From Bacteroidales bacterium (GTDB lineage Bacteria; Bacteroidota; Bacteroidia; Bacteroidales; UBA932): a stretch of 64,000 nucleotides of DNA. The stretch spans positions 18,047 through 82,046 of the forward strand of contig JAFRUH010000011.1 in NCBI GenBank assembly GCA_017438975.1. Reading direction: 5' to 3'. Both the position numbers and the translations under genes were made by a program. The notes under the pieces were generated by a model that searched no databases, was not told the origin of the DNA, and saw only the letters and a list, made by a program, of their open reading frames with translations. Positions 38,596 to 49,913 of this stretch are shown here, in pieces (position 1 is the first letter of the stretch; the number at the start of each line of letters is the position of its first letter).

Positions 38596-39528
38596 TTATT
38601 TTTCAATATCTTCTTTTGAGAAAAGGGAACTCACGAACTCCTTCTTGTCGAATACTTTCAGGTCATCCACTCCTTCCCCGATGCCGAGGAACTTGATCGG
38701 GAAACGGAACTGGTCGACGATGCCGACGACCACCCCGCCCTTCGCGCTGCCGTCGAGCTTGGTGACGGCAAGGGCGGTTACGTCGGTAGCCTTCGAGAAT
38801 TCCTTGGCCTGGACGAAGGCGTTCTGTCCGGTCGAGCCGTCGAGGACGAGCAGGACTTCGTGCGGGCCGTCGGGGACGACCTTCCGGATGACGTTCCGGA
38901 TCTTCGTCAGTTCGTTCATCAGGTCGATCCGGTTATGGAGCCGGCCGGCCGTATCGATCAGGACGACATCCGCACCTTTCGCGACCGCTGAGCGCACGGA
39001 ATCATAGGCCACCGAGGCGGGATCCGAGCCCATCCCCTGCTTGACGATGTCCGCTCCGGCGCGTTCGGCCCAGATGACAAGCTGTTCGACGGCGGCGGCG
39101 CGGAAGGTATCGGCTGCCCCGATGACGACCTTCTTTCCCTGGGCGGCGAGCATGGAAGCGATCTTGCCGATCGTCGTCGTCTTCCCGACCCCGTTCACGC
39201 CGACAACCAGGACGACATAGGGTTTCTTCGTGAAGTCGAAGACCTGCACCGGAGCCTCTTCCCCATTGACGTTCAGGAGCTTCCCGATTTCGTCCCGAAG
39301 GATGTCGACCAGTTCGTCCATATTCATGAACTTGTCGCGCTCGACCCGGTCCTCCAGGTTGTCGATCAGCTTGAGAGTCGTATCGACGCCCATGTCCGAC
39401 GAAAGCAACGCCTCCTCGATCGCATCGAGCACATCCTCGTCGACCTTTGACTTGCCGACGATCGCCCTCGAAAGCTTCTGGAAGAAGTTCTGGTTGGTCT
39501 TCTTGACCCCTTTATCGAAAATTCCCAT
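38596..39528 (-). CDS. ftsY: Signal recognition particle receptor FtsY
   Basis: 310 residues, the short form lacking the long acidic A domain. The helical N domain (about 1-95) is followed by the SRP GTPase: GVNGVGKTTTIGK (P loop), DTFRAAAVEQL, VLIDTAGR, TKLDGSAKGG and GIGEGVDDLKVFD. It docks the SRP-ribosome complex at the inner membrane. A -7 box TATATTTG precedes it, so the ftsY-pheT-DUF4296-amidohydrolase-radical SAM-deoC run likely begins here. Confidence 0.97.
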   Translation of the reverse strand: MGIFDKGVKKTNQNFFQKLSRAIVGKSKVDEDVLDAIEEALLSSDMGVDTTLKLIDNLEDRVERDKFMNMDELVDILRDEIGKLLNVNGEEAPVQVFDFTKKPYVVLVVGVNGVGKTTTIGKIASMLAAQGKKVVIGAADTFRAAAVEQLVIWAERAGADIVKQGMGSDPASVAYDSVRSAVAKGADVVLIDTAGRLHNRIDLMNELTKIRNVIRKVVPDGPHEVLLVLDGSTGQNAFVQAKEFSKATDVTALAVTKLDGSAKGGVVVGIVDQFRFPIKFLGIGEGVDDLKVFDKKEFVSSLFSKEDIEK

Positions 39529-39547
39529 AAGAAATCCCTTTAACTTG

Positions 39548-39579
39548 CAAATATACGGAATTTCTCACGGGAATACAAC
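39548..39579 (-). promoter_or_regulatory. ftsY operon promoter
   Basis: TATATTTG on the minus strand at 39555-39548 with GTTG at 39579-39576 (20 bp apart). It abuts the 51-bp repeat array that starts at 39584. Confidence 0.5.
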
Positions 39580-39583
39580 ACAA

Positions 39584-39728
39584 GCCGCGCCCCTCACAAA
39601 AACCGCCAATATCGTGGGTCGAACCGGCGACTAGGTCCCGGCCGCCCACAGCGAGGGCCAAAATCGTGGGCGGGACCGCAGTCAAAACCCGGCCGCCCAC
39701 AATAACCGTCAAAATCGTGGGCGGGATG
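39584..39728 (+). repeat. 51-bp palindromic repeat array A (two intact units, one degenerate)
   Basis: Intact units start at 39641 and 39692, exactly 51 bp apart. Each has CCGCCCAC and GTGGGCGG arms around a 16-nt loop ending CCAAAATC or TCAAAATC. A degenerate copy covers 39584-39640 (57 bp, altered left arm). The array sits in the 289-bp gap between ftsY and the TonB receptor gene, all units in plus orientation. Confidence 0.9.
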
Positions 39729-39817
39729 TTGTCTCGAAGAATAACTGCCGGAGTGATCAGAAAACGTAACCGGCATGGAACCCCGCAAAACTGTTCGCCC
39801 TGTCACTGACCGTGTAA

Positions 39818-41860
39818 TCAGAACGAGAGACGATAGCTGATACTTGGCATGATCGGGAGAAGAGAGATTCGCTTCCACCCTCTCTCCTCCGCGTCATACG
39901 TGATCATGAAAGGATTGTGCTGGTTTGTTAAATTATAGATTCCAAGATTCAGTTCCTGCAAGAACCGGAGACCTTGCCATTTGGTATACCATCCCGCATC
40001 CCAGCGGAAAAACATAGGCATCTGATAATTATTCGTGGTTCCATAAATATCAATCCAGACCCGGTCTTTATCCAGAAGCGGAATCCCATACTTTCCGGCT
40101 GGGACCGTCTCCCAACAACCAGACTGCAGCGTCAAGAAGGTGGTGACGCCCGTTTCATGGTTCAAATTCTTTCGTAAGACATACTTCCCGTATAGATTCA
40201 GGATATGCCGCCTGTCAAATTTAGCTGGGAACCGTTTCCCCTCGTTGAGCCGTGCGAAATAGCGGTCTGTCTTTGAAAGCGTATAGGCTCCGTGAGCGGA
40301 AAAACGGCTCCCCGAATAGCGATATGTGGCCTCCAGGCCATAGGAGAGCCCATCTCCGACACATACTGAAGAACGCCAGTCTGCCAGCGCCGCCCGGAAC
40401 AGACTTCCGGCATCCATGAAATGGACAAGATTGTCCATCTTCTTCCAGTAACCGCCCATTCTGAATGCATGATTGCTCCTTTCGCCGAAAAGACCGGCAT
40501 AGTACTGACGCATCGTCTCAGGGGGATGTCGTTCATCGGAAGGGACAACCATATCTAGAGCCCATCCCACCGGAATCCCTTCCAAAGTGTGATAATACTG
40601 AACCCGATCGTCGTACGTAAGCTCAAACCCCAACCAGAAGATGGGGGACCATCTCAGATAGGCACCGTATTCATGGTTTTTGAAGAATCCATGCATATTA
40701 TATCTCCATGCGGCACGTACCGAGAGCTGGTTCATACGTTCATACGCTGCCTGGGCGTGCCAGGTTTCCGTTTCCGCATCCATCCGGTTGTCCACAATCG
40801 GAATCTCCCTCCCCGCTGAAAGTTCATTGCCGGCATACGAAGTGGATGATCCGGGGTTGAATCCCGCCCACCGCCGGGAATAGCCTCCAGATAAGGTCCA
40901 TCCCCCATGAAGTATGGCCATAACTCCATCCAATCCTTTTTCCCGAAGACTGTCCCTGATCATGAAGGTATTCTCGACCCCCATCGCCGTCTTCACCTGA
41001 CGCTGGTCCGATGTCTTCAGATCGGCATACGCAGATGCAGAGAACCGTATCTTCCAAAAATTCCATTCCCAACGTGACAATGCGATCTGGTTCTGCCAGC
41101 CCATCCTTTCATTCAAATTATCATGAAAGGAGAAAAGATACTCGTCCCCGCTTTGGAAATAGCTTCCTTCCAGACTGCTTCCTTTCCAAAGACGAACTTT
41201 GATCTTCCCATACAGATCATGGATTGAAGCGTCGACATCCCGGATACCCTTCAGGCGCCCTTCAAGCAGTTTCGCTTCCCAACCCGCCGGCGACCAACGT
41301 CCAGCCGCGACAAGACCCACCCTCTCTTTTATGACCGGAACTTTGATGGACGCCCCAGCCATAAAGTTACTGATACTTGCAGAGGCCCTGAAAAACGACA
41401 TATCTGCCGGCGTCGAACGTAAGAGGACATGGGACGAGGTGAGATTCCCTTCATCAGAGGCAAAGCCGCCAACCCTGAATACCGTTTCGGAAACAACATC
41501 ATTTGAAAAAACGGACATCAGACCCAGGAGATGACTCCCCGCATATACCGGCACTCCGTCAATAGTAACAATGTTACTGCCGAGATTTCCACCCCTGACA
41601 TACAGTGCCGACGATCCGTCCGCACCGGTCGCCACCCCCGGGAGCATCTGAATATATTTGTAATAATCTCCCTCACCTGTCGGGGAAACCATCGCACGGA
41701 TTTCCGGAGCCCGAACCAAGATCGCGCCAGTCGTCCGGACGGGCCTGACATCTTCCTTCATGGCGGCATGGAGCGTGTCCCGCAACTCGGAGGTTTGCTG
41801 CGCAAAAGACAGAATCGATAGAAACGCCATTAAGAACCCCGCAAGAATCGTCTTATTCAT
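39818..41860 (-). CDS. TonB-dependent receptor paired with DUF4249
   Basis: 680 residues from ATG 41860 (MNKTILAGFLMAFLSILSFAQ), which overlaps the DUF4249 stop as ATGA. Plug motifs: MLPGVATGADGSSALYVRGGN, IVTIDGVPVYAGSHLLG. The barrel ends in SISYRLSF with terminal Phe. Members that pair with DUF4249 often carry an N-terminal carboxypeptidase-like domain; here it is absent or reduced, so the protein is short. Ligand unknown. Base composition is clearly more AT-rich than ftsY and pheT, and 51-bp repeats flank the module, both suggesting transfer. Confidence 0.85.
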   Translation of the reverse strand: MNKTILAGFLMAFLSILSFAQQTSELRDTLHAAMKEDVRPVRTTGAILVRAPEIRAMVSPTGEGDYYKYIQMLPGVATGADGSSALYVRGGNLGSNIVTIDGVPVYAGSHLLGLMSVFSNDVVSETVFRVGGFASDEGNLTSSHVLLRSTPADMSFFRASASISNFMAGASIKVPVIKERVGLVAAGRWSPAGWEAKLLEGRLKGIRDVDASIHDLYGKIKVRLWKGSSLEGSYFQSGDEYLFSFHDNLNERMGWQNQIALSRWEWNFWKIRFSASAYADLKTSDQRQVKTAMGVENTFMIRDSLREKGLDGVMAILHGGWTLSGGYSRRWAGFNPGSSTSYAGNELSAGREIPIVDNRMDAETETWHAQAAYERMNQLSVRAAWRYNMHGFFKNHEYGAYLRWSPIFWLGFELTYDDRVQYYHTLEGIPVGWALDMVVPSDERHPPETMRQYYAGLFGERSNHAFRMGGYWKKMDNLVHFMDAGSLFRAALADWRSSVCVGDGLSYGLEATYRYSGSRFSAHGAYTLSKTDRYFARLNEGKRFPAKFDRRHILNLYGKYVLRKNLNHETGVTTFLTLQSGCWETVPAGKYGIPLLDKDRVWIDIYGTTNNYQMPMFFRWDAGWYTKWQGLRFLQELNLGIYNLTNQHNPFMITYDAEERGWKRISLLPIMPSISYRLSF

Positions 41861-42987
41861 TTTGTTATCCATTGCAACCCTATGGACCCGTCTTCTTCGA
41901 TGCAATACTCATAGTCGTGGTGATAGGGAAAGATATGTATGGACTCTGCCCCGAAAAACCCCTTCGCCCCGCCAAGGATATTGCACGCTACTTCTTGGCG
42001 ATTATACATTGTCTCAAAAAGATCCCCTGATTCGATACTGAGACCCTTCTTATATATATCTTTTAGAAACTGATCATAGTCGTCAGAAACGACACGGATT
42101 TCAGTAAACAGTTCTGGCCGGTATCCAGTTTCATCCCGGTGACGGATCGCATATTCTGAATCATATTCACCCAGGACGAAAAACAACACCCGCTTTTCAG
42201 CATCCGGGACAATCGTCCAATCTTTCAATTCTTTTGCGTTCTCCGAACGGTCCTGCTCTGTTTCGGTTTCTCTTGGAAAATGGATTCGAACCGCTCTCCA
42301 ATACAATCTGGAGTCGGGATTTAGATAAGGATAAAAAGTATGGCTGTAACGAGAATTCATCCCAGCCTTATCCCATACATCCGAGCGAAAACAGGCCAAG
42401 TCTGAAAGACAAAGCGGCGTAGCGTTAAATGCATCAACGAATGGATGGGTTGTTGTTAGAAACTCACTATAATGCCGTTCACCTTCGGAGAGCAAGTGAT
42501 ACTGGGTAATCCAATATGAGATCGGTCCGGTGAGAATGGTGTCTCCTTTTTCTTTTTCAATCATTCTGGATACCCGATACAGGTTCCAGCCGTCCTGTCG
42601 AAAAACCTCCCACTTCTCCGGATAATCAGCCTGGGCTGTAAATCTCTGACCAGTAGACAATTCGACCTCAAGGTGACATCGTTGTCCATACAAAACTGAA
42701 AACTCTGATGTCTCCCAGACACCTTCTCCTTTGTAGTGAAAGTCCATTGATCTTGCCTCTGTCGTATAAAGACGAGCACGGACGACTTCTTCCTCCGGTA
42801 TCGGAATCAGCGTCTCGCCCTCAGAAGGAAGGGCGGCGCGCAAAAGCTGCATCCTCTGAACGCTGGACGTATCGTTCAGTACACAATACACCACAACCGG
42901 CTTCTCCTCCTTCGGATCCATGACAATCGTCTCCACACAAGACATGGCCAGGAGGCAACAGAGAGAGAAATAAAAGAAGTGTTTCAT
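41857..42987 (-). CDS. DUF4249 surface lipoprotein
   Basis: 376 residues; lipobox LLAMSC and the opening VETIVMDPKEEKPVVVYCVLND typical of DUF4249. The body is beta-rich (RCHLEVELSTGQRFTAQADYP, and DRLYW-like strands). DUF4249 proteins accompany TonB receptors in Bacteroidota and are thought to act as surface partners, as SusD-type proteins do, although no substrate is known. Translationally coupled to the receptor gene downstream and 6 bp after a small barrel gene upstream. Confidence 0.85.
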   Translation of the reverse strand: MKHFFYFSLCCLLAMSCVETIVMDPKEEKPVVVYCVLNDTSSVQRMQLLRAALPSEGETLIPIPEEEVVRARLYTTEARSMDFHYKGEGVWETSEFSVLYGQRCHLEVELSTGQRFTAQADYPEKWEVFRQDGWNLYRVSRMIEKEKGDTILTGPISYWITQYHLLSEGERHYSEFLTTTHPFVDAFNATPLCLSDLACFRSDVWDKAGMNSRYSHTFYPYLNPDSRLYWRAVRIHFPRETETEQDRSENAKELKDWTIVPDAEKRVLFFVLGEYDSEYAIRHRDETGYRPELFTEIRVVSDDYDQFLKDIYKKGLSIESGDLFETMYNRQEVACNILGGAKGFFGAESIHIFPYHHDYEYCIEEDGSIGLQWITK

Positions 42988-42993
42988 GCTTAA

Positions 42994-43545
42994 TCAAAAC
43001 ACCCAGCCGGCGGAAACGTAGTAGGCCGGCTGCGCGGCCCGGAAAATATGGGAACAATAATGATGGTGGCCGAATGTCAGGCGAAGATGACGGAACAATT
43101 CCAAACCCGCCCGACAATGGAGATCAAAGCCCCATTTTTTCCAGCTGTGACCATCGCTTAACTTTGCAAAGTCATACTGAGGCCCGGCCCCGACGCCGAA
43201 AAACGGCGAGACGACCGATCCTGAAAACGGGTTATACTCGGCAAGGATGTTCAACGCCTGCGTGACCCCTTTTGACGCGAGCATATTGTAGCCGTCTTCG
43301 TCTACTCCTATCAAGGTATCGCTCCAATTCGGCATCAGCTGATACTGCGCGGCAAGGGAAAGGCCCTTCCGAACATTGTAGCGATACTCGCCGTATAGAA
43401 TCATGGCGTTATGGCCCCCTCCGTCGCCGTCCTTCGTCATCTTGTCCATGAACGAAACGCCGCCTCCGAATTCGAACGAACTCTTGTTCTGGGCCCCGAG
43501 CATCACCGGGACCACGATCAGAATCATTGCAAGAAATCTTTTCAT
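42994..43545 (-). CDS. Small outer-membrane beta-barrel protein
   Basis: 183 residues: signal peptide (MKRFLAMILIVVPVMLGAQ), then alternating strands (FEFGGGVSFMDK, LYGEYRYNVRKGLSLAAQYQL, FFGVGAGPQYDF) and a C-terminal YYVSAGWVF with aromatic end, as in OmpA-like or OmpW-like barrels. No Cys-rich or enzymatic motif. Probably part of the DUF4249/TonB module, as the spacing on both sides is 6 and 16 bp. Function unknown. Confidence 0.75.
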   Translation of the reverse strand: MKRFLAMILIVVPVMLGAQNKSSFEFGGGVSFMDKMTKDGDGGGHNAMILYGEYRYNVRKGLSLAAQYQLMPNWSDTLIGVDEDGYNMLASKGVTQALNILAEYNPFSGSVVSPFFGVGAGPQYDFAKLSDGHSWKKWGFDLHCRAGLELFRHLRLTFGHHHYCSHIFRAAQPAYYVSAGWVF

Positions 43546-43561
43546 TTTTCCCCCTTGTTCA

Positions 43562-44104
43562 TTACTGGTCTAAACCTAAATTCTCTCCCGTCAGATCGAA
43601 AAAGAAAACGATTTGATTTACATAGTGGCTAAAGTCGGGAAAAACTACGTCGGGAATAGAACTTTGGTTTATGTCAAACAACTGTATTCCTCCTTGTTTA
43701 TAATCTGCCGCGTACCAGGTTTTCAACAGTTTCTTCTCTCCGTCTTTTAGTGAGAAAACAGATAATGCCGCGCCGTCAACATTCTGAACCAAATCCTCTA
43801 TTGTGATGGAGTATGGTCCTCTCTCTTGTTTTATAAAATCTTTGTTCGACATAGCCGGCATCGTATTAGCGGCTATGATCGCACTGTTTTTCACTTTGAT
43901 CTCCCCTATGCTCACAACGGACGAGCCGGAAATATAGGGGTTATACTTTTGCAGGAAAGAAACGCAATTGGTCTCAATGGCCAAGGGTTCATCCGTCTGG
44001 TTTCGAATGGCGAAAAGGACTGTCATCTGTCCTCTATTCTCAAAAATGCAGGATGTCGCAGATAACAAAATGACTGCTAAACAAATAAGTTGCTTCGGCT
44101 TCAT
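43562..44104 (-). CDS. Hypothetical lipoprotein
   Basis: 180 residues; lipobox LLSATSC then IFENRGQMTVLFAIRNQTDE. The sequence is mainly beta (LAIETNCVSFLQKYNPYISG, VNQIVFFFDLTGEN) and no family is recognised. It precedes the small barrel gene by 16 bp in the same AT-rich unit (about 40-43% GC by eye), and follows the small Cys-rich peptide gene. A surface or periplasmic role is likely. Confidence 0.65.
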   Translation of the reverse strand: MKPKQLICLAVILLSATSCIFENRGQMTVLFAIRNQTDEPLAIETNCVSFLQKYNPYISGSSVVSIGEIKVKNSAIIAANTMPAMSNKDFIKQERGPYSITIEDLVQNVDGAALSVFSLKDGEKKLLKTWYAADYKQGGIQLFDINQSSIPDVVFPDFSHYVNQIVFFFDLTGENLGLDQ

Positions 44105-44134
44105 AACTAAAACGAATGAATTATTGACACACTG

Positions 44135-44344
44135 TCAGTTTAACCCACATTCTTCGGCGTTTTCTTTATTATAGATGCAATTCCAGGCCGATTCGTTGCA
44201 ACGCCCCTCCGGGTCTTGAACATGCGCTTGTGGTGGAACCACTTGCCGATGTGAAGAGGATGGTTCCGCAAACGACCTTGCCGTTGCCGCACATGTCACG
44301 ACCAAAAGTAGGACGGACATCAGGAAAAGTATTTTCTTTGCCAT
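44135..44344 (-). CDS. Small secreted Cys-containing peptide
   Basis: 69 residues from ATG 44344 (MAKKILFLMSVLLLVVTCAA). After an N-terminal signal-like helix (to about residue 26) the mature part has PPQAHVQDPEGR and a Cys-rich tail (C49, C56, C66 in CNESAWNCIYNK and EECGLN). Size and shape recall the NVEALA-type small secreted peptides of Bacteroidales, though the NVEALA motif itself is missing. It lies between the TPR/HTH membrane regulator and a lipoprotein gene, so it may be a signal or surface peptide of this module. Longer frame to 44428 has no support. Confidence 0.6.
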   Translation of the reverse strand: MAKKILFLMSVLLLVVTCAATARSFAEPSSSHRQVVPPQAHVQDPEGRCNESAWNCIYNKENAEECGLN

Positions 44345-44449
44345 AAATGATATAATAATGTTCGGCAAAGGTAAAGGCACGACAAAAGAATCACAATCAA
44401 GAATTGTGACAAACAATAATGTAAACAACTGATAATCAGATAGCGATCT

Positions 44450-46153
44450 CTATTTCTTTGTGACAAGAGCCAACAAAGATGTCGCAGCGGGGGTTCCTTG
44501 ACTCTTTAATTTAGCGGACAACCTGCTCTTTCTTTTGCGAACTAAATCATAATCAAGCCCGGACAAGAAAGCGACATGATGATTATCAAAACCGGACAAG
44601 AACAAAACCAGCAGACGAAAATCTGTTTCATCGAGTCGTTTCCCTTTCTCCGCCAGGTTCGAAGACTCATCGCGTAACTGCGAAATCAGATGATCGTTGC
44701 ATGCATCCGTTTCTTCTTCTAACTTGACAAGCATTTCCCGATCTTTTCGCAATTCGTGAAGCTGAGCCCTGAATTTCTCTAGTATCTCACCCTCCGTAGC
44801 GAACTCTCCTTTACGCCGTTCTTTCTTGAAATTATCCGTCTCCCAAAATAAATAACTGTTTGAAAGGGTCTTTAAAATTCTAAGCTTATCCCTATACTGA
44901 TTGATAACAAGTGTTTGTAACCGATTTTTTGATTTCTCGGTGAAAGATAGATTATCACTCAATTCAGCCGCTCTTGTAAGAGCTTCTGTTAAAGCAAGCC
45001 GGCTTTTCCGGTACCATGACAATAGCATACCGATCATAAAGAAAGCTAAAAGAGAGATCAATACGAACAATAACTTCTGTTTGTCAGAGCGTAATTTCTC
45101 CGTTATCAGCCTTTCGTTTTGATGCAAGGTCAAGGAATACGCTACCGAATTATTCAACTTGACATGAATCAGAGAATCTTCATAAAACATAGTTGAGGCA
45201 AAACAATCCACGGCTTCTTCATAAAGGCTATGACGAATTCTTGCAACTCTGTATTTGTTATAATTCACCTCCGCCGAATCCTTCCGAGAAGAGCATCGTT
45301 TATCGGCGCACTGCAAATAGTAATTCACTGAATCTTGTATCCCCAATAATGAATAACCATATCCCAAGTTACTATAATCCAATGGAGAGAACTCTCTTCG
45401 ATGGTCCGACGACGCTGTTTGATAAGCAGAAATGATTCTCATTCCGTCTCTATCCTCCCATGCGCTGATTATTTGGGCTTGGATAAGAGTTACCGATCTT
45501 CTCAAGTTTTGATCGATTGTGACATCGGATAGCAATAAATCACATAATTGATTTGCCTCATTTGCCATTCTATTTCCATACAAATACGCTATCTTGTCAA
45601 AGAGGCAATAATCTTTATACTGTTTTTTACCACATATGTCAAAATAATCAATGGCTTTATCAATTTCCAACAATGCATGGCGGTTATCATAAACTCCTCT
45701 ATAAACAGACGCTTGATTTCGAGAAATAAGCCCCTGATAAAAAACATTCCCTATCCTCTCTGCCGACTCTTCCGCTTCTGTCAGGGATATGATCGCCGAG
45801 GTCCATTGCTCCGCATTGATCTGCACACGTCCCAACGAATACCAGGCGAGCATCCTGTGTCGATCCGATCCCTTTGTATCGTAATATTCGACAGCGACCC
45901 GAGCAATCGAGTCATTCGTAAAGTCATGGTAAGTCTTATCAGCGGCCAGGCTGTACAGGAGGGCATGATATGCCCGTAAGTGTTTCGTTGACAGAGAGGC
46001 TCCATCCATTTTGTTGATCTCGGTCCATGCGCTGTCAGGGTATTCATGCAAATATCCATTGATCTCGTCCAGGGCTCGTCCAACCTCAAATGAACGGCAT
46101 GATGATAAAACCAGCGATATCAGTAAGATAAGAAACGAAGAAGTCTTTTTCAT
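44450..46153 (-). CDS. Membrane TPR regulator with C-terminal HTH-like domain
   Basis: 567 residues. Lipobox-like LVLSSC near residue 19; about 25-340 are TPR-like helices (WTEINKMDGASLS, LAWYSLGRVQINAEQ, YSNLGYGYSLLGIQDS); a membrane helix follows (LLFVLISLLAFFMIGMLLSW, near 365), then a coiled coil to about 480, and a C-terminal segment FRLLVLFLSGFDNHHVAFLSG with DLVRKRKSRLSAKL, like the LuxR-type DNA-binding helices of Bacteroidales one-piece regulators. It probably senses an envelope cue and regulates the adjacent module. AT-rich (about 40% GC). Confidence 0.75.
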   Translation of the reverse strand: MKKTSSFLILLISLVLSSCRSFEVGRALDEINGYLHEYPDSAWTEINKMDGASLSTKHLRAYHALLYSLAADKTYHDFTNDSIARVAVEYYDTKGSDRHRMLAWYSLGRVQINAEQWTSAIISLTEAEESAERIGNVFYQGLISRNQASVYRGVYDNRHALLEIDKAIDYFDICGKKQYKDYCLFDKIAYLYGNRMANEANQLCDLLLSDVTIDQNLRRSVTLIQAQIISAWEDRDGMRIISAYQTASSDHRREFSPLDYSNLGYGYSLLGIQDSVNYYLQCADKRCSSRKDSAEVNYNKYRVARIRHSLYEEAVDCFASTMFYEDSLIHVKLNNSVAYSLTLHQNERLITEKLRSDKQKLLFVLISLLAFFMIGMLLSWYRKSRLALTEALTRAAELSDNLSFTEKSKNRLQTLVINQYRDKLRILKTLSNSYLFWETDNFKKERRKGEFATEGEILEKFRAQLHELRKDREMLVKLEEETDACNDHLISQLRDESSNLAEKGKRLDETDFRLLVLFLSGFDNHHVAFLSGLDYDLVRKRKSRLSAKLKSQGTPAATSLLALVTKK

Positions 46154-46195
46154 AGAAAAATGCTCGAATTATGAGTAAATATACAAAAAATGGAT

Positions 46196-46255
46196 GAGAA
46201 AAAGAAGGCCGTCATCCATTATTAATCTTTATGTCAAAAGAAAAACGACAGCCTT
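46196..46255 (-). terminator. Leader hairpin with U tract upstream of the TPR/HTH gene
   Basis: On the minus strand AAGGCTGTC (46255-46247) pairs with GACGGCCTT (46213-46205), nine pairs with one G-U, loop about 33 nt, followed by CTTTTTCTC. It could end read-through from the transposase gene or act as an attenuator in the 190-nt leader of the regulator. Confidence 0.4.
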
Positions 46256-46342
46256 CCCAAAAACTCCGAAATTGGTAGACAATAAAAAGGGTGGACATCT
46301 ACCTGAGCGACGGGACTTCTGACGGTCCACTGCTTTCGATTG

Positions 46343-46374
46343 CAAAGATAAACACCTCAGCCGATTATTCCAAC
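46343..46374 (-). promoter_or_regulatory. Promoter of the TPR/HTH regulator
   Basis: TATCTTTG on the minus strand (46350-46343) with GTTG (46374-46371) at 20 bp. It gives a leader of about 185 nt to ATG 46153. The promoter lies 20 bp from repeat array B. Confidence 0.5.
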
Positions 46375-46393
46375 TTTTCTTGCCCAGTCCCCG

Positions 46394-46479
46394 GCCGCCC
46401 ACGAAAACAACCAAAATCGTGGGCGGACACCCAATCAAGCCACAGCCACCCACGAAAACCGCCAATATCGTGGGCGGGA
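46394..46479 (+). repeat. 51-bp palindromic repeat array B (two units)
   Basis: Units start at 46394 and 46445, exactly 51 bp apart, with arms CCGCCCAC/GTGGGCGG (second left arm CCACCCAC, one change). The loops are GAAAACAACCAAAATC- and GAAAACCGCCAATATC-like. The right arm ends about 8 bp before the transposase stop at 46486. Confidence 0.9.
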
Positions 46480-46485
46480 GGGAGT

Positions 46486-47430
46486 TTAGCGTTGAAGGTT
46501 GGCGGACAGCGGAAACAAGGCATCCACCATTTTCGGGGGAAGCCGCAGTATTCGGGTCAACTGGGCATTCGAGGCGCCATACTTGTTCTTCAGCCGGACC
46601 GCAAGTTGGACTCGCTGCTCATCCTTCAAGTCCGCCGGCCGGTCCGTAAAGTATTCCGACCGGCAGATGCCGCAAACGGCTGTCCATAGTTCTTCATCGC
46701 TCAAGACCGGTTTTTCACCCAAATGTAGGGCGGCCTCAACTTGGGATTCAACGTTCTTGAACAGCCAGAACATGAATTTCCTCGCACTCGGGAAAGGCGA
46801 TTCCACCAGTCGGTAGTTCACGAAACTCCCCGGGAAGATACAATCGCCCGACACGGTCAATCCATCCCGGATGGAACCGTCCATCGAGGCTGTCAAAGCC
46901 CTTCTCTCCCGAACCGTCAGTCCAGAGACGGGACGCACCGGCATGAACCGGAGCAAGGGATTATAATAGAGAAAACCGGAACTCCACGGATCTGACAATG
47001 GATTCACATCCGTCCTTACGACAAAGGCGTTCCGGAGTACATAGGCGACCTCGTCGCGGAACTGTTTCAAGGATGTAATGGGCGTCAGGGCGAAATCGGG
47101 TTTCGCCAATACCCCCGGCCTGCCATGGCGCGACAAGTACTGTTTAAGCCGATCGAAAAACGAACGATAATACGCTATGCAGCGATCCTCCTCCCCTCGA
47201 AGAATTTCATGGAGATGGTTGCTCATGATCTGGTAGGCAAGGATTTCTATGTCAGAAGACAGGATGCCCATCAAGTTGACGGCCTGTTTTCTCTCGCGAT
47301 CCGTTTCAAAGAGGATTCTGTCAAGCGGGGCCGTATGCAGATGGTAGAAGGGACCGGACTCCGCAAACAGTTGCTGCTGCCACAATTCGATCTGCTTTTC
47401 GCTCAAGGGTTGTTTTTCATAGCTGTCCAT
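46486..47430 (-). CDS. RAYT-type Y1 (HUH) REP-associated transposase
   Basis: 314 residues. The Y1 transposase core carries the HUH pair in IMSNHLHEIL (H72, H74) and the likely catalytic Tyr130 in VAYVLRNAFVV, equivalent to the YIHLNP motif of REP-associated tyrosine transposases. The C-terminal 45 residues (VQLAVRLKNKYGASNAQLTRIL then LPPKMVDALFP) look like a helix-turn-helix. RAYTs cut and join single-stranded REP hairpins and are single-copy, non-mobile relatives of IS200/IS605. Repeat arrays flank it on both sides (8 bp and 100 bp away), a REPtron layout. Key residues are intact, so it looks functional. Confidence 0.88.
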   Translation of the reverse strand: MDSYEKQPLSEKQIELWQQQLFAESGPFYHLHTAPLDRILFETDRERKQAVNLMGILSSDIEILAYQIMSNHLHEILRGEEDRCIAYYRSFFDRLKQYLSRHGRPGVLAKPDFALTPITSLKQFRDEVAYVLRNAFVVRTDVNPLSDPWSSGFLYYNPLLRFMPVRPVSGLTVRERRALTASMDGSIRDGLTVSGDCIFPGSFVNYRLVESPFPSARKFMFWLFKNVESQVEAALHLGEKPVLSDEELWTAVCGICRSEYFTDRPADLKDEQRVQLAVRLKNKYGASNAQLTRILRLPPKMVDALFPLSANLQR

Positions 47431-47530
47431 GATGTAAACCTACGAATGAATCCGGTGTGTTCCAATACCGGATGCTGGTTTTTTCTATTGTCCATCGTCT
47501 TTTCCGATTTTTACTGTTCCCTCCTCCCCA

Positions 47531-47822
47531 GCCGCCCACAACAAGGGCCAAAATCATGGGCGGAACCGCGATCAAGCGCCGGCCGCCCACAACAGGGGCC
47601 AAAATCGTGGGCGGGACCGCGATCAAGCGCCGGCCGCCCACAACAGGGGCCAAAATCGTGGGCGGGACCGTAATCAAGCCCCGGTCGCCCACAACAGGGG
47701 CCAAAATCGTGGGCGGGACCGCAAACAAGCCCTAGCCGCCCACGTATACCGCCGAAATCGTGGGCGGAACCGCAATCAAGCCCCGGCCGCCCATAACAAG
47801 GGCCAAAATCGTGGGCGGGACC
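47531..47822 (+). repeat. 51-bp palindromic repeat array C (six units)
   Basis: Units start at 47531, 47582, 47633, 47684, 47735 and 47786, exactly 51 bp apart. Consensus left arm GCCGCCCAC, 16-nt loop AACAGGGGCCAAAATC, right arm GTGGGCGGG, then a conserved linker ACCGCGATCAAGCGCCG. Units 2 and 3 are identical across the arms and loop; unit 5 has a divergent loop. All are in plus orientation, 100 bp upstream of the transposase start. Confidence 0.93.
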
Positions 47823-47870
47823 GGGCGGCGCGCCCTCGACTGAAGCCACATGCACCGCGGGCGGCGCGAC

Positions 47871-47906
47871 AAAAGGCCGGGCCTGGATTATCCTCCAGGC
47901 CCGGCC
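47871..47906 (-). terminator. Intrinsic terminator of the ribosomal protein run
   Basis: A perfect 12-bp stem GGCCGGGCCTGG/CCAGGCCCGGCC (47875-47886 and 47895-47906) with 8-nt loop is followed on the minus strand by TTTT (47874-47871). It stands 22 bp after the DUF4295 stop and separates this operon from repeat array C. Confidence 0.88.
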
Positions 47907-47928
47907 TTTCAGTGACGGTAGAGAGAAA

Positions 47929-48087
47929 TTACTTCTTGTCGAAGAACTCTTTCTCCTTGCCTTCCTCGACGAGCTGCTCAACGAAAACGTAAGCGCCGGT
48001 CTTCGGAGACTTGTCCATGCGGATGACTTTGACCATGTGCTTGGCACCGGCCTTCGCATCGAACGTTGCAACTGCTTTTTTTGCCAT
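47929..48087 (-). CDS. DUF4295 small basic protein
   Basis: 52 residues (MAKKAVATFDAKAGAKHMVK and VIRMDKSPKTGAYVFVEQLV, ending FFDKK), the size and sequence pattern of DUF4295, a Bacteroidota family encoded directly after rpmG. Lys-rich N terminus suggests an RNA- or ribosome-linked role, and the position after rpmB-rpmG supports this; function is unproven. It is the last gene before the terminator. Confidence 0.9.
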   Translation of the reverse strand: MAKKAVATFDAKAGAKHMVKVIRMDKSPKTGAYVFVEQLVEEGKEKEFFDKK

Positions 48088-48106
48088 ATCTTAAATCTCC
48101 TATACT

Positions 48107-48295
48107 TTACTTGATCTCACGGTGGAGAGTGACTTTCTTGAGGTAGGGATTGTATTTCATACGCTCAAGACGCTCCGGCGTGTTCTTCTTGTTCTTGGTG
48201 GTAATGTACCGGGACATGCCGGGAACACCGCTAGCTTTCTGCTCGGTGCACTCAAGGATGACCTGCACCCTGTTGCCTTTCGCTTTCTTTGCCAT
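48107..48295 (-). CDS. rpmG: 50S ribosomal protein L33
   Basis: 62 residues: [20 protein letters not shown], then [21 protein letters not shown] and [14 protein letters not shown]. This is L33, a small 50S protein near the E site. Only one Cys is present, so the four-Cys zinc ribbon is missing and it is the zinc-independent form. It lies 11 bp after rpmB and 19 bp before DUF4295. Confidence 0.96.
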
Positions 48296-48306
48296 AATTC
48301 GTTCAA

Positions 48307-48549
48307 TTAAACAAGGTTAACATATCCTTTCTTCTGTGCATCCTTCAGGACGGCGTCGAGGCCATTCTTCTCGATGATCCTCATGCCCTTGCAGGACACT
48401 TTGAGGGTGATGTACCGCTGCTCGGTCTCGGACCAGAAACGCTTGGTCTTGAGGTTGAGATCGAAGGTACGCTTGGTGCGGAGCTTGGAGTGGGCGACGT
48501 TGTTGCCGACCATCCGCTTTCTTCCGGTTACTTGACAAACCTTTGACAT
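48307..48549 (-). CDS. rpmB: 50S ribosomal protein L28
   Basis: 80 residues from ATG 48549: [20 protein letters not shown], then [19 protein letters not shown] and GYVNLV at the end, the standard L28 sequence. The frame continues further upstream (to 48693) only by running through lepB in another frame, so it is not used. Part of the set lepB-rpmB-rpmG-DUF4295. Confidence 0.97.
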
Positions 48550-48572
48550 AATCTTATCTTTTTTTAATTTTA

Positions 48573-49913
48573 TTAAACAAACTTGAAGAAACGGTTCCAC
48601 CGAATGTTGTTCGGGAATTTCCGGTTCTTGTCCGTGGAGAGCCAGATCACGACCGGCCGTCCGACGATATGGTCTTCGGGAACGAAGCCCCAATACCGGG
48701 AATCGAGCGAGTTGTGCCTGTTGTCTCCCATCATAAAATAATAATCCTGCTTGAAAGTATAGCTTTCCACCTTCTCTCCGTTGACATAGATTCCGTCCGC
48801 GGCGACCTTGAGGTCATTGTGCTCGTAATCCCGGATGATCCGCTCATAGAAAGGCAGCGACTCTTTGTCCAGCTTGACCGTAGCTCCCTTCTCGGGAATC
48901 CAGAGCGGTCCGAAATAGTCCCTCGTCCAGCATGTCTTCTCCGTGAAGGGGAAGATCAGCAGATACGAATCCATCTGGGACGGATAGGTATCGAGGACGG
49001 GTTCCACGCTGACGACGTTCGAAAGTCCCTTGATCTGCTCCAAAGCCTTGGCGGTCAGCGGCATGGCCGCATAGCCGGGGAGGCGGGAATCGTAGGAGAA
49101 GTCGCCGGGATTGAGGCGCATTTTCTCCAGGATCTTGGAGTTGATCTTGTGGCCGTCCGTGATGACCCGGTAGGTCAGCTGGACGCCCGGATAAACTTCC
49201 TGCTGCTCCCCGTTGACCCAGACAAGTCCGTCGCGGACGGTCAGGGTATCGCCGGGCAGGGCGACGCAGCGCTTGACATAATGGTCCTTCTTGTCGGTAG
49301 GACGGACGATGACCGGGCCGAGCCAGGAAATCGTATAGTCCCTTCCGGAGGTCCTTTCCCAGGCGTAATAGTCGTCGGCCGGAGCTTTCCGGAGGACGGT
49401 ATCGCCGTTGGGGAACCCGAAGACCACATAGTCGCCCCTCTTGACGTTCCTGAGACCTTTCAGGCGGCGGTAGTCATTGTGGATCAGGGTCGAATAAGAC
49501 TCCTTGCCCATGAATACGTTGTGCGTGAAGGGAATCGTGAGCGGCGTTTCGGGGACGCGCGGGCCGTAGGTCAGCTTGCTGACGAAGAGATGGTCTCCCG
49601 TATAGAGGGAACTCTCCATCGAAGAGGAAGGTATCTTGAAAGCCTGGAAGAAGAAAATATTGATGAACGTGACGACGACCACCGCGAAGATGATTGCATC
49701 GAGCCAGTCGAGCCAGACATTGTGCTTCTCCCCCTCCTTGTACTCTTTTTTCCAGAAGAGCCACTTTACCTTCTTGGTAATCAGGAGGTCGAAGATGATG
49801 CCGAGGCCGAGGAGCCACCAATAGTTTCCGAGCCAGATCACCCACGCCACATAGAGCAGGGACCAGAATCCCAGCTTGACCCAGCGGTTGCGGATGATTT
49901 CTTTCAAGCTCAT
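48573..49913 (-). CDS. lepB: Signal peptidase I
   Basis: 446 residues, longer than the usual 220-320, as in Bacteroidota forms with a large insertion. Two membrane helices lie near 10-45 and 68-90. Catalytic Ser is in KIPSSSMESSLYTGD (near 95) and Lys in KRCVALPGD; the later MGDNRHNSLDSRYWG is box E. It removes signal peptides at the outer face of the inner membrane. It is 10 bp downstream of rplT and 23 bp upstream of rpmB, so secretion and translation genes share a transcript. Confidence 0.95.
   Translation of the reverse strand: MSLKEIIRNRWVKLGFWSLLYVAWVIWLGNYWWLLGLGIIFDLLITKKVKWLFWKKEYKEGEKHNVWLDWLDAIIFAVVVVTFINIFFFQAFKIPSSSMESSLYTGDHLFVSKLTYGPRVPETPLTIPFTHNVFMGKESYSTLIHNDYRRLKGLRNVKRGDYVVFGFPNGDTVLRKAPADDYYAWERTSGRDYTISWLGPVIVRPTDKKDHYVKRCVALPGDTLTVRDGLVWVNGEQQEVYPGVQLTYRVITDGHKINSKILEKMRLNPGDFSYDSRLPGYAAMPLTAKALEQIKGLSNVVSVEPVLDTYPSQMDSYLLIFPFTEKTCWTRDYFGPLWIPEKGATVKLDKESLPFYERIIRDYEHNDLKVAADGIYVNGEKVESYTFKQDYYFMMGDNRHNSLDSRYWGFVPEDHIVGRPVVIWLSTDKNRKFPNNIRWNRFFKFV

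Follow-up and report, generated by a model that had tools for sequence, protein, structure and literature searches.

In classic REPtrons, the gene for a REP-associated tyrosine transposase (RAYT) is flanked by inverted repetitive extragenic palindromic (REP) sequences (PMC2817692), and the repeats and the protein diverge together (PMC2817692, PMC6006769). REP doublets forming hairpins (REPINs) are inverted doublets (PMC3116915); preferred doublet spacings of 71 and 110 bp are given for P. fluorescens SBW25, and the linkers of bacterial interspersed mosaic elements (BIMEs) are described as variable (PMC3116915, PMC8266576). IS608 acts on the top strand (PMC2806898). Here we describe a window of 64,000 nucleotides from a Bacteroidales bacterium (assembly GCA_017438975.1, contig JAFRUH010000011.1, positions 18,047 to 82,046), which is part of contig C5 in a genome of 2.80 Mb and 33 contigs. 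The window carries a RAYT-like gene between arrays of hairpin repeats, and it is probably a REPtron-like locus whose RAYT belongs to a divergent family of long forms and would work in the way proposed below. All of the evidence is sequence, and many of the compared genomes are incomplete.

The gene at 46486..47430 (minus strand) encodes a protein of 314 aa with an HUH/Y1 domain (N71-H72-x-H74, Y130 and N134) and a C-terminal helical extension. Its best fold match is 4er8 (TnpAREP), which places it in the RAYT fold, and its catalytic domain is nearer to RAYT than to IS608 in the fold comparison. An alignment of 182 proteins of the family shows H72, Y130 and N134 in every sequence and H74 in 181, which bears out the histidine pair and the tyrosine proposed in an earlier note on this DNA; the YIHLNP-like motif proposed with them is not present, as the window protein reads AYVLRNA (Y-x-x-x-N), with 56 residues from H74 to Y130. 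The NCBIfam model REP_Tyr_transpos (NF047646) is matched by 22 of 50 family members at E<=0.01 (best 8.7e-11). The window protein scores 15.7 bits, below the curated cut-off of 80, as do its relatives (17.3 to 41.8 bits in the four of six with a match). The protein is thus supported as RAYT-like by fold and in part by sequence.

Hairpin arrays lie on both sides of the gene, at the distances that had been claimed for them, all on the minus strand. Downstream, unit 1 (46446..46477) begins 8 bp beyond the stop codon and unit 2 (46395..46426) lies 51 bp from unit 1. Upstream, an array that begins about 100 bp before the start codon contains six head-to-tail units with a 51-bp pitch (47532..47818; starts at 47532, 47583, 47634, 47685, 47736 and 47787), and Tandem Repeats Finder reports a period of 51 with 5.8 copies at 47526-47823. 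When up to three mismatches are allowed, the window contains 10 matches to the pattern CCGCCCAC-N16-GTGGGCGG, where 0.73 are expected, and none of 100 shuffles reaches 10; two matches lie at 46395-46477, six at 47532-47818 and two at 39642-39724. The last two, found by the mismatch search and outside the range covered by the earlier note, form a scattered doublet of the same hairpin (39642..39724, minus strand) with units 51 bp apart and no RAYT; a degenerate third unit precedes the doublet by about 51 bp (near 39591). Folding of five units as single-stranded DNA gives stems of 9-10 bp with z-scores of -3.35 to -6.39.

The same arrangement recurs across the family. From 192 gathered RAYT loci, 182 were kept once duplicates and one short protein had been removed, and the 175 with at least 200 nt on both sides were used for the both-flank test. 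The same hairpin is found on both flanks at 86 of these 175 loci, against 1 of 1750 shuffles, and a scan with narrower limits gives 47 of 112 loci against 8 of 2240. With real DNA as the control, matches occur at 73 of 139 loci near the gene and at 1 of 139 at 900-1400 nt, and flanks paired from different loci match in 6 of 139 and 2 of 139. At least three units, or matching units on both sides, are present at 97 of the 182 loci. When spacings of 31-110 bp are considered, the commonest is 50-53 bp in 71 of the 76 loci with a measurable period (41, 47, 72, 74 and 102 in the rest); of the 308 neighbor distances between 16 and 300 bp, 248 fall at 50-53 bp and 12 at 101-104 bp. These RAYTs of gut Bacteroidales, about half of those checked having their own flanking hairpin at a pitch near 51 bp, look like a new branch of the RAYT/REP system.

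Two cases illustrate other pitches. L097 (G016:C4), where the RAYT frame has an internal stop and is flanked by 8 + 8 units, shows a 74-bp pitch and is the clearest exception to 51 bp, and the CGGGCAC doublets of G044 have a pitch of 53 bp.

Copies of the window hairpin also occur elsewhere in its own genome. With up to three mismatches, 29 places are found and the backwards control gives 15, so only clustered or near-exact copies were counted. These comprise the RAYT locus and five further sites: C5:57688 (window 39642), C14:86509-86693, C19:154-236, C22:233403-233537 and C2:166753-166835. Fifteen units in the genome have at most one mismatch. The C2 doublet aligns with C19 (98 bp, 89%), C22 (93 bp, 78%), C14 (84 bp, 73%) and the RAYT-side array (84 bp, 70%), which indicates that entire doublets, and not just arms, are related. 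Arrays of the window arm type are confined to this genome among 101 genus genomes, five others having one match each. The earlier note had named repeats equally common in genomes lacking the RAYT, or no copies outside the locus, as findings that would speak against it; neither was encountered. Identity between the window RAYT and the others in its genome is 25-29%. The RAYT on C20 (L026) lies between two long palindromes whose arms are related, one per side (C20 167278-167314 and 168604-168644, or L026 1388-1424 and 2714-2754), and lacks a 51-bp array, perhaps a second layout within the family.

Two other arm types, CGGGCAC and GAACAAAA, have exact copies in 13 and 8 of 101 genomes, respectively. 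Among the matches listed for them, 35 of 36 neighbor distances below 1 kb are 50-53 bp, and 67 of 124 copies have an exact neighbor at 50-53 bp. In G132, all eight pairs among the matches listed are spaced by 51 bp, and in the six doublets away from a RAYT the linkers are 33% alike and the flanks 25 and 36%; in G137, three doublets hold 51 bp while their linkers are 51% alike. The doublets on the two sides of the gene resemble each other in order in 11 of 12 loci with exactly two units per side; among all 41 loci with doublets on both sides the count is 34, although in this larger set the best pair had been chosen for that order. The pairwise spacing and this resemblance indicate that the doublet is the copied unit and that the pitch is kept where the linker is not. 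The doublet is therefore copied as a REPIN is, but it is not an inverted repeat. At L267 (G121:C6:34800-37300), two GAACAAAA doublets (584-657 and 1802-1874) flank a gene of the sodium/bile acid symporter family (321 aa; Pfam SBF, E 2.3e-51) and no RAYT, in what is possibly a cargo-like layout; the stop of the gene overlaps the second doublet.

Arms and protein vary together. Arms are shared in 27 of 28 ordered RAYT pairs at >=80% identity, 14 of 20 at 65-80%, 13 of 198 at 50-65% and 158 of 5160 below 28%. With syntenic pairs removed, a small correlation remains (r=0.134) that lies beyond the range of 500 permutations. Merging arms that have a 6-mer in common leaves the 97 loci in 78 arm groups with one common geometry.

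In the mechanism that we favor, the RAYT, through its HUH domain, would bind and nick its own hairpin as single-stranded DNA, and its substrate would be two same-strand hairpins about 51 nt apart, probably read by the two active sites of a dimer. The sequences show that doublets have been copied; by this route they would have been placed beside the gene, grown into tandem arrays and spread through the genome. The correlation between arms and protein suggests that the two diverge together, so that each allele would recognize its own arms. As the earlier note proposed, the window RAYT may make or move these repeats. A more specific version is offered tentatively and could well be wrong: the mobile minimum would be a same-strand doublet with a fixed pitch near 51 nt, which a transposase dimer would treat as a left end and a right end in miniature, intermediate between IS200/IS605 and REPINs, with the pitch set by the enzyme, arm specificity swapped fast and dozens of independent enzyme-hairpin pairs within this one genus.

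Several results weigh against this mechanism. At 89 of the 175 loci, including the own-genome RAYT on C23, no matching hairpin was found on both sides, and the C20 RAYT has a both-flank match yet no array. Co-divergence rests largely on loci possibly sharing descent, because most close RAYT pairs are syntenic and few are not; among non-syntenic pairs, an arm likeness of 0.75 or more is reached by 1 of 3 in the class of >=75% identity, by 2 of 3 in the 65-75% class and by 0 of 35 in the 55-65% class, phase ambiguity lowering the scores of some pairs. Genome-level co-occurrence of RAYT and repeats is uninformative, since RAYTs are so common in the genus. The equal arms of the G132 doublets prove nothing, as exact arms were what the search asked for and the doublets (6 of 8) were selected from its listed pairs, and four further G132 copies have no exact neighbor among the matches listed. 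A search for RAYTs covered 11 of the 13 CGGGCAC genomes and five of the eight GAACAAAA genomes; a listed copy adjoins a RAYT in four genomes of each set. Loop and linker phase are ambiguous in some arrays, no strand preference is seen (G.T 72 against A.C 63, p=0.49), and a clean pair of empty and filled sites was not found, the single pair tried having lost synteny.

Orientation bears on the strongest alternative. Units within arrays run head to tail, their identity being much greater in direct than in reversed comparison. Across the gene, the units of the two flanks have the same orientation in 71 of 87 loci and opposite orientations in 14, with ties in 2; single loci such as L126, whose outer feet are paired by eye, may depart from the same-strand pattern. 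A GT[AG]G foot is not enriched: of 497 units, 3 carry it on one side and 6 on the other, compared with 50 of 2485 random 6-mers. The gammaproteobacterial REPtron layout suggested earlier thus stands in that repeats flank the RAYT, but it is not the classic form, given the mostly direct flanks, the lack of this foot and the nearly fixed pitch. The direct flanks resemble the one-strand use of IS608, and not the inverted classic REPs and REPINs, so the layout leans toward IS200/IS605 while the fold is that of a RAYT. The doublets could serve as the two ends, left and right, of a cassette that is mobilized as single-stranded DNA and carries the RAYT gene along. In L038, L051, L060, L126, L137 and L138 the gene lies between near-identical A-B doublets (in-order identity 0.92-1.00), and RAYT pairs 75-87% identical with common arms have at least one unmatched flank (L031/L188, L151/L161). 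Such an element is nevertheless rather unlikely, as the catalytic domain is nearest to RAYT and the other RAYTs of the genome differ too much from the window RAYT to be recent copies made by an active IS; no search was aimed specifically at identical complete cassettes in a single genome.

An origin of the hairpins as ordinary 3'-end or terminator-like elements, dispersed through recombination and slippage with the RAYT incidental among them, is improbable. Slippage alone would suffice for tandem growth, and in 4 of 14 scattered loci (L278, L279, L280 and L282) a simple frame list puts the start of a doublet on a stop codon or no more than 13 nt from one; however, the hairpins associate with the RAYT in the real-DNA control, an Rfam scan of window positions 39000-49000 finds no family above its threshold, and the conserved terminator of the neighboring ribosomal-protein cluster is a hairpin separate from those of the RAYT. 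Regulation of the RAYT gene or a chromosome-binding task, with a domesticated enzyme, would fit the arrays on both sides and the low copy number of 15 near-exact units, but is very unlikely, as it leaves unexplained the scattered doublets with kept pitch and unlike linkers.

The window RAYT locus is accessory. Neither a RAYT nor the window hairpin is found beside the conserved ribosomal-protein cluster in any of 16 relatives with a 1.5 kb flank, 3 of the 19 fetched loci having been left out for too short a flank. The perfect inverted repeat at 47872..47909 (no strand), the probable terminator of that cluster, is outside the RAYT/hairpin system and marks the border of the locus. The window protein is matched in 52 of 61 genus genomes and in 0 of 40 others, and a profile of 308 positions is matched in 82 of 198 genomes of the order; among the matches listed, only the two genomes of the genus give full-length matches, and the others cover parts of the first ~190 positions. 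Most named relatives are animal-gut records filed under Bacteroidales, Bacteroidia or Candidatus Cryptobacteroides, and the window itself may come from Cryptobacteroides. One family RAYT with 48% identity (L164) lies on a contig titled Fibrobacter sp., which may reflect a wrong label, a wrong bin or transfer, and G044 contains 21 profile matches, some of them pieces.

These observations bear on how RAYTs choose and spread REPs. The family provides a natural set of protein-hairpin pairs, the near-constant pitch offers a sharp test of a two-hairpin requirement, and, with so many arm groups sharing one geometry, the recognition code could be read by comparison and by arm and protein swaps. Compared with gammaproteobacterial REPtrons, the HUH/Y1 fold and the palindromic repeats beside the gene and elsewhere are alike, whereas the flank orientation, the foot and the length of ~300 aa with a C-terminal extension differ, and searches with three arm types give <=20 exact copies in any one genome, against usually >100 (PMC2817692). 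TnpAREP subclass 2.6 (RAYT group 5), described with a median of 179 aa, a HuH-Y distance of 82 and the motif YIH[QN]NP, is also found in Bacteroidota, with atypical secondary structures flanking the genes and copies elsewhere (PMC6006769); the window protein differs from it in its 314 aa, its 56 residues from H74 to Y130 and its sequence YVLRNA. Subclass 2.1 (TIRYT) shares the long protein, the C-terminal extension and a HuH-Y distance near the usual 58-67, but no REP-like sequences are reported beside 2.1 genes (PMC6006769), where hairpins are present here. The Y1 HUH fold and hairpin ends used on one strand are common to IS200/IS605 elements (IS608, ISDra2). As in REPINs and BIMEs, the repeated unit is a doublet with a preferred spacing; here, in contrast, the units run mostly head to tail, and a single pitch of ~51 bp spans many alleles with unrelated arms.
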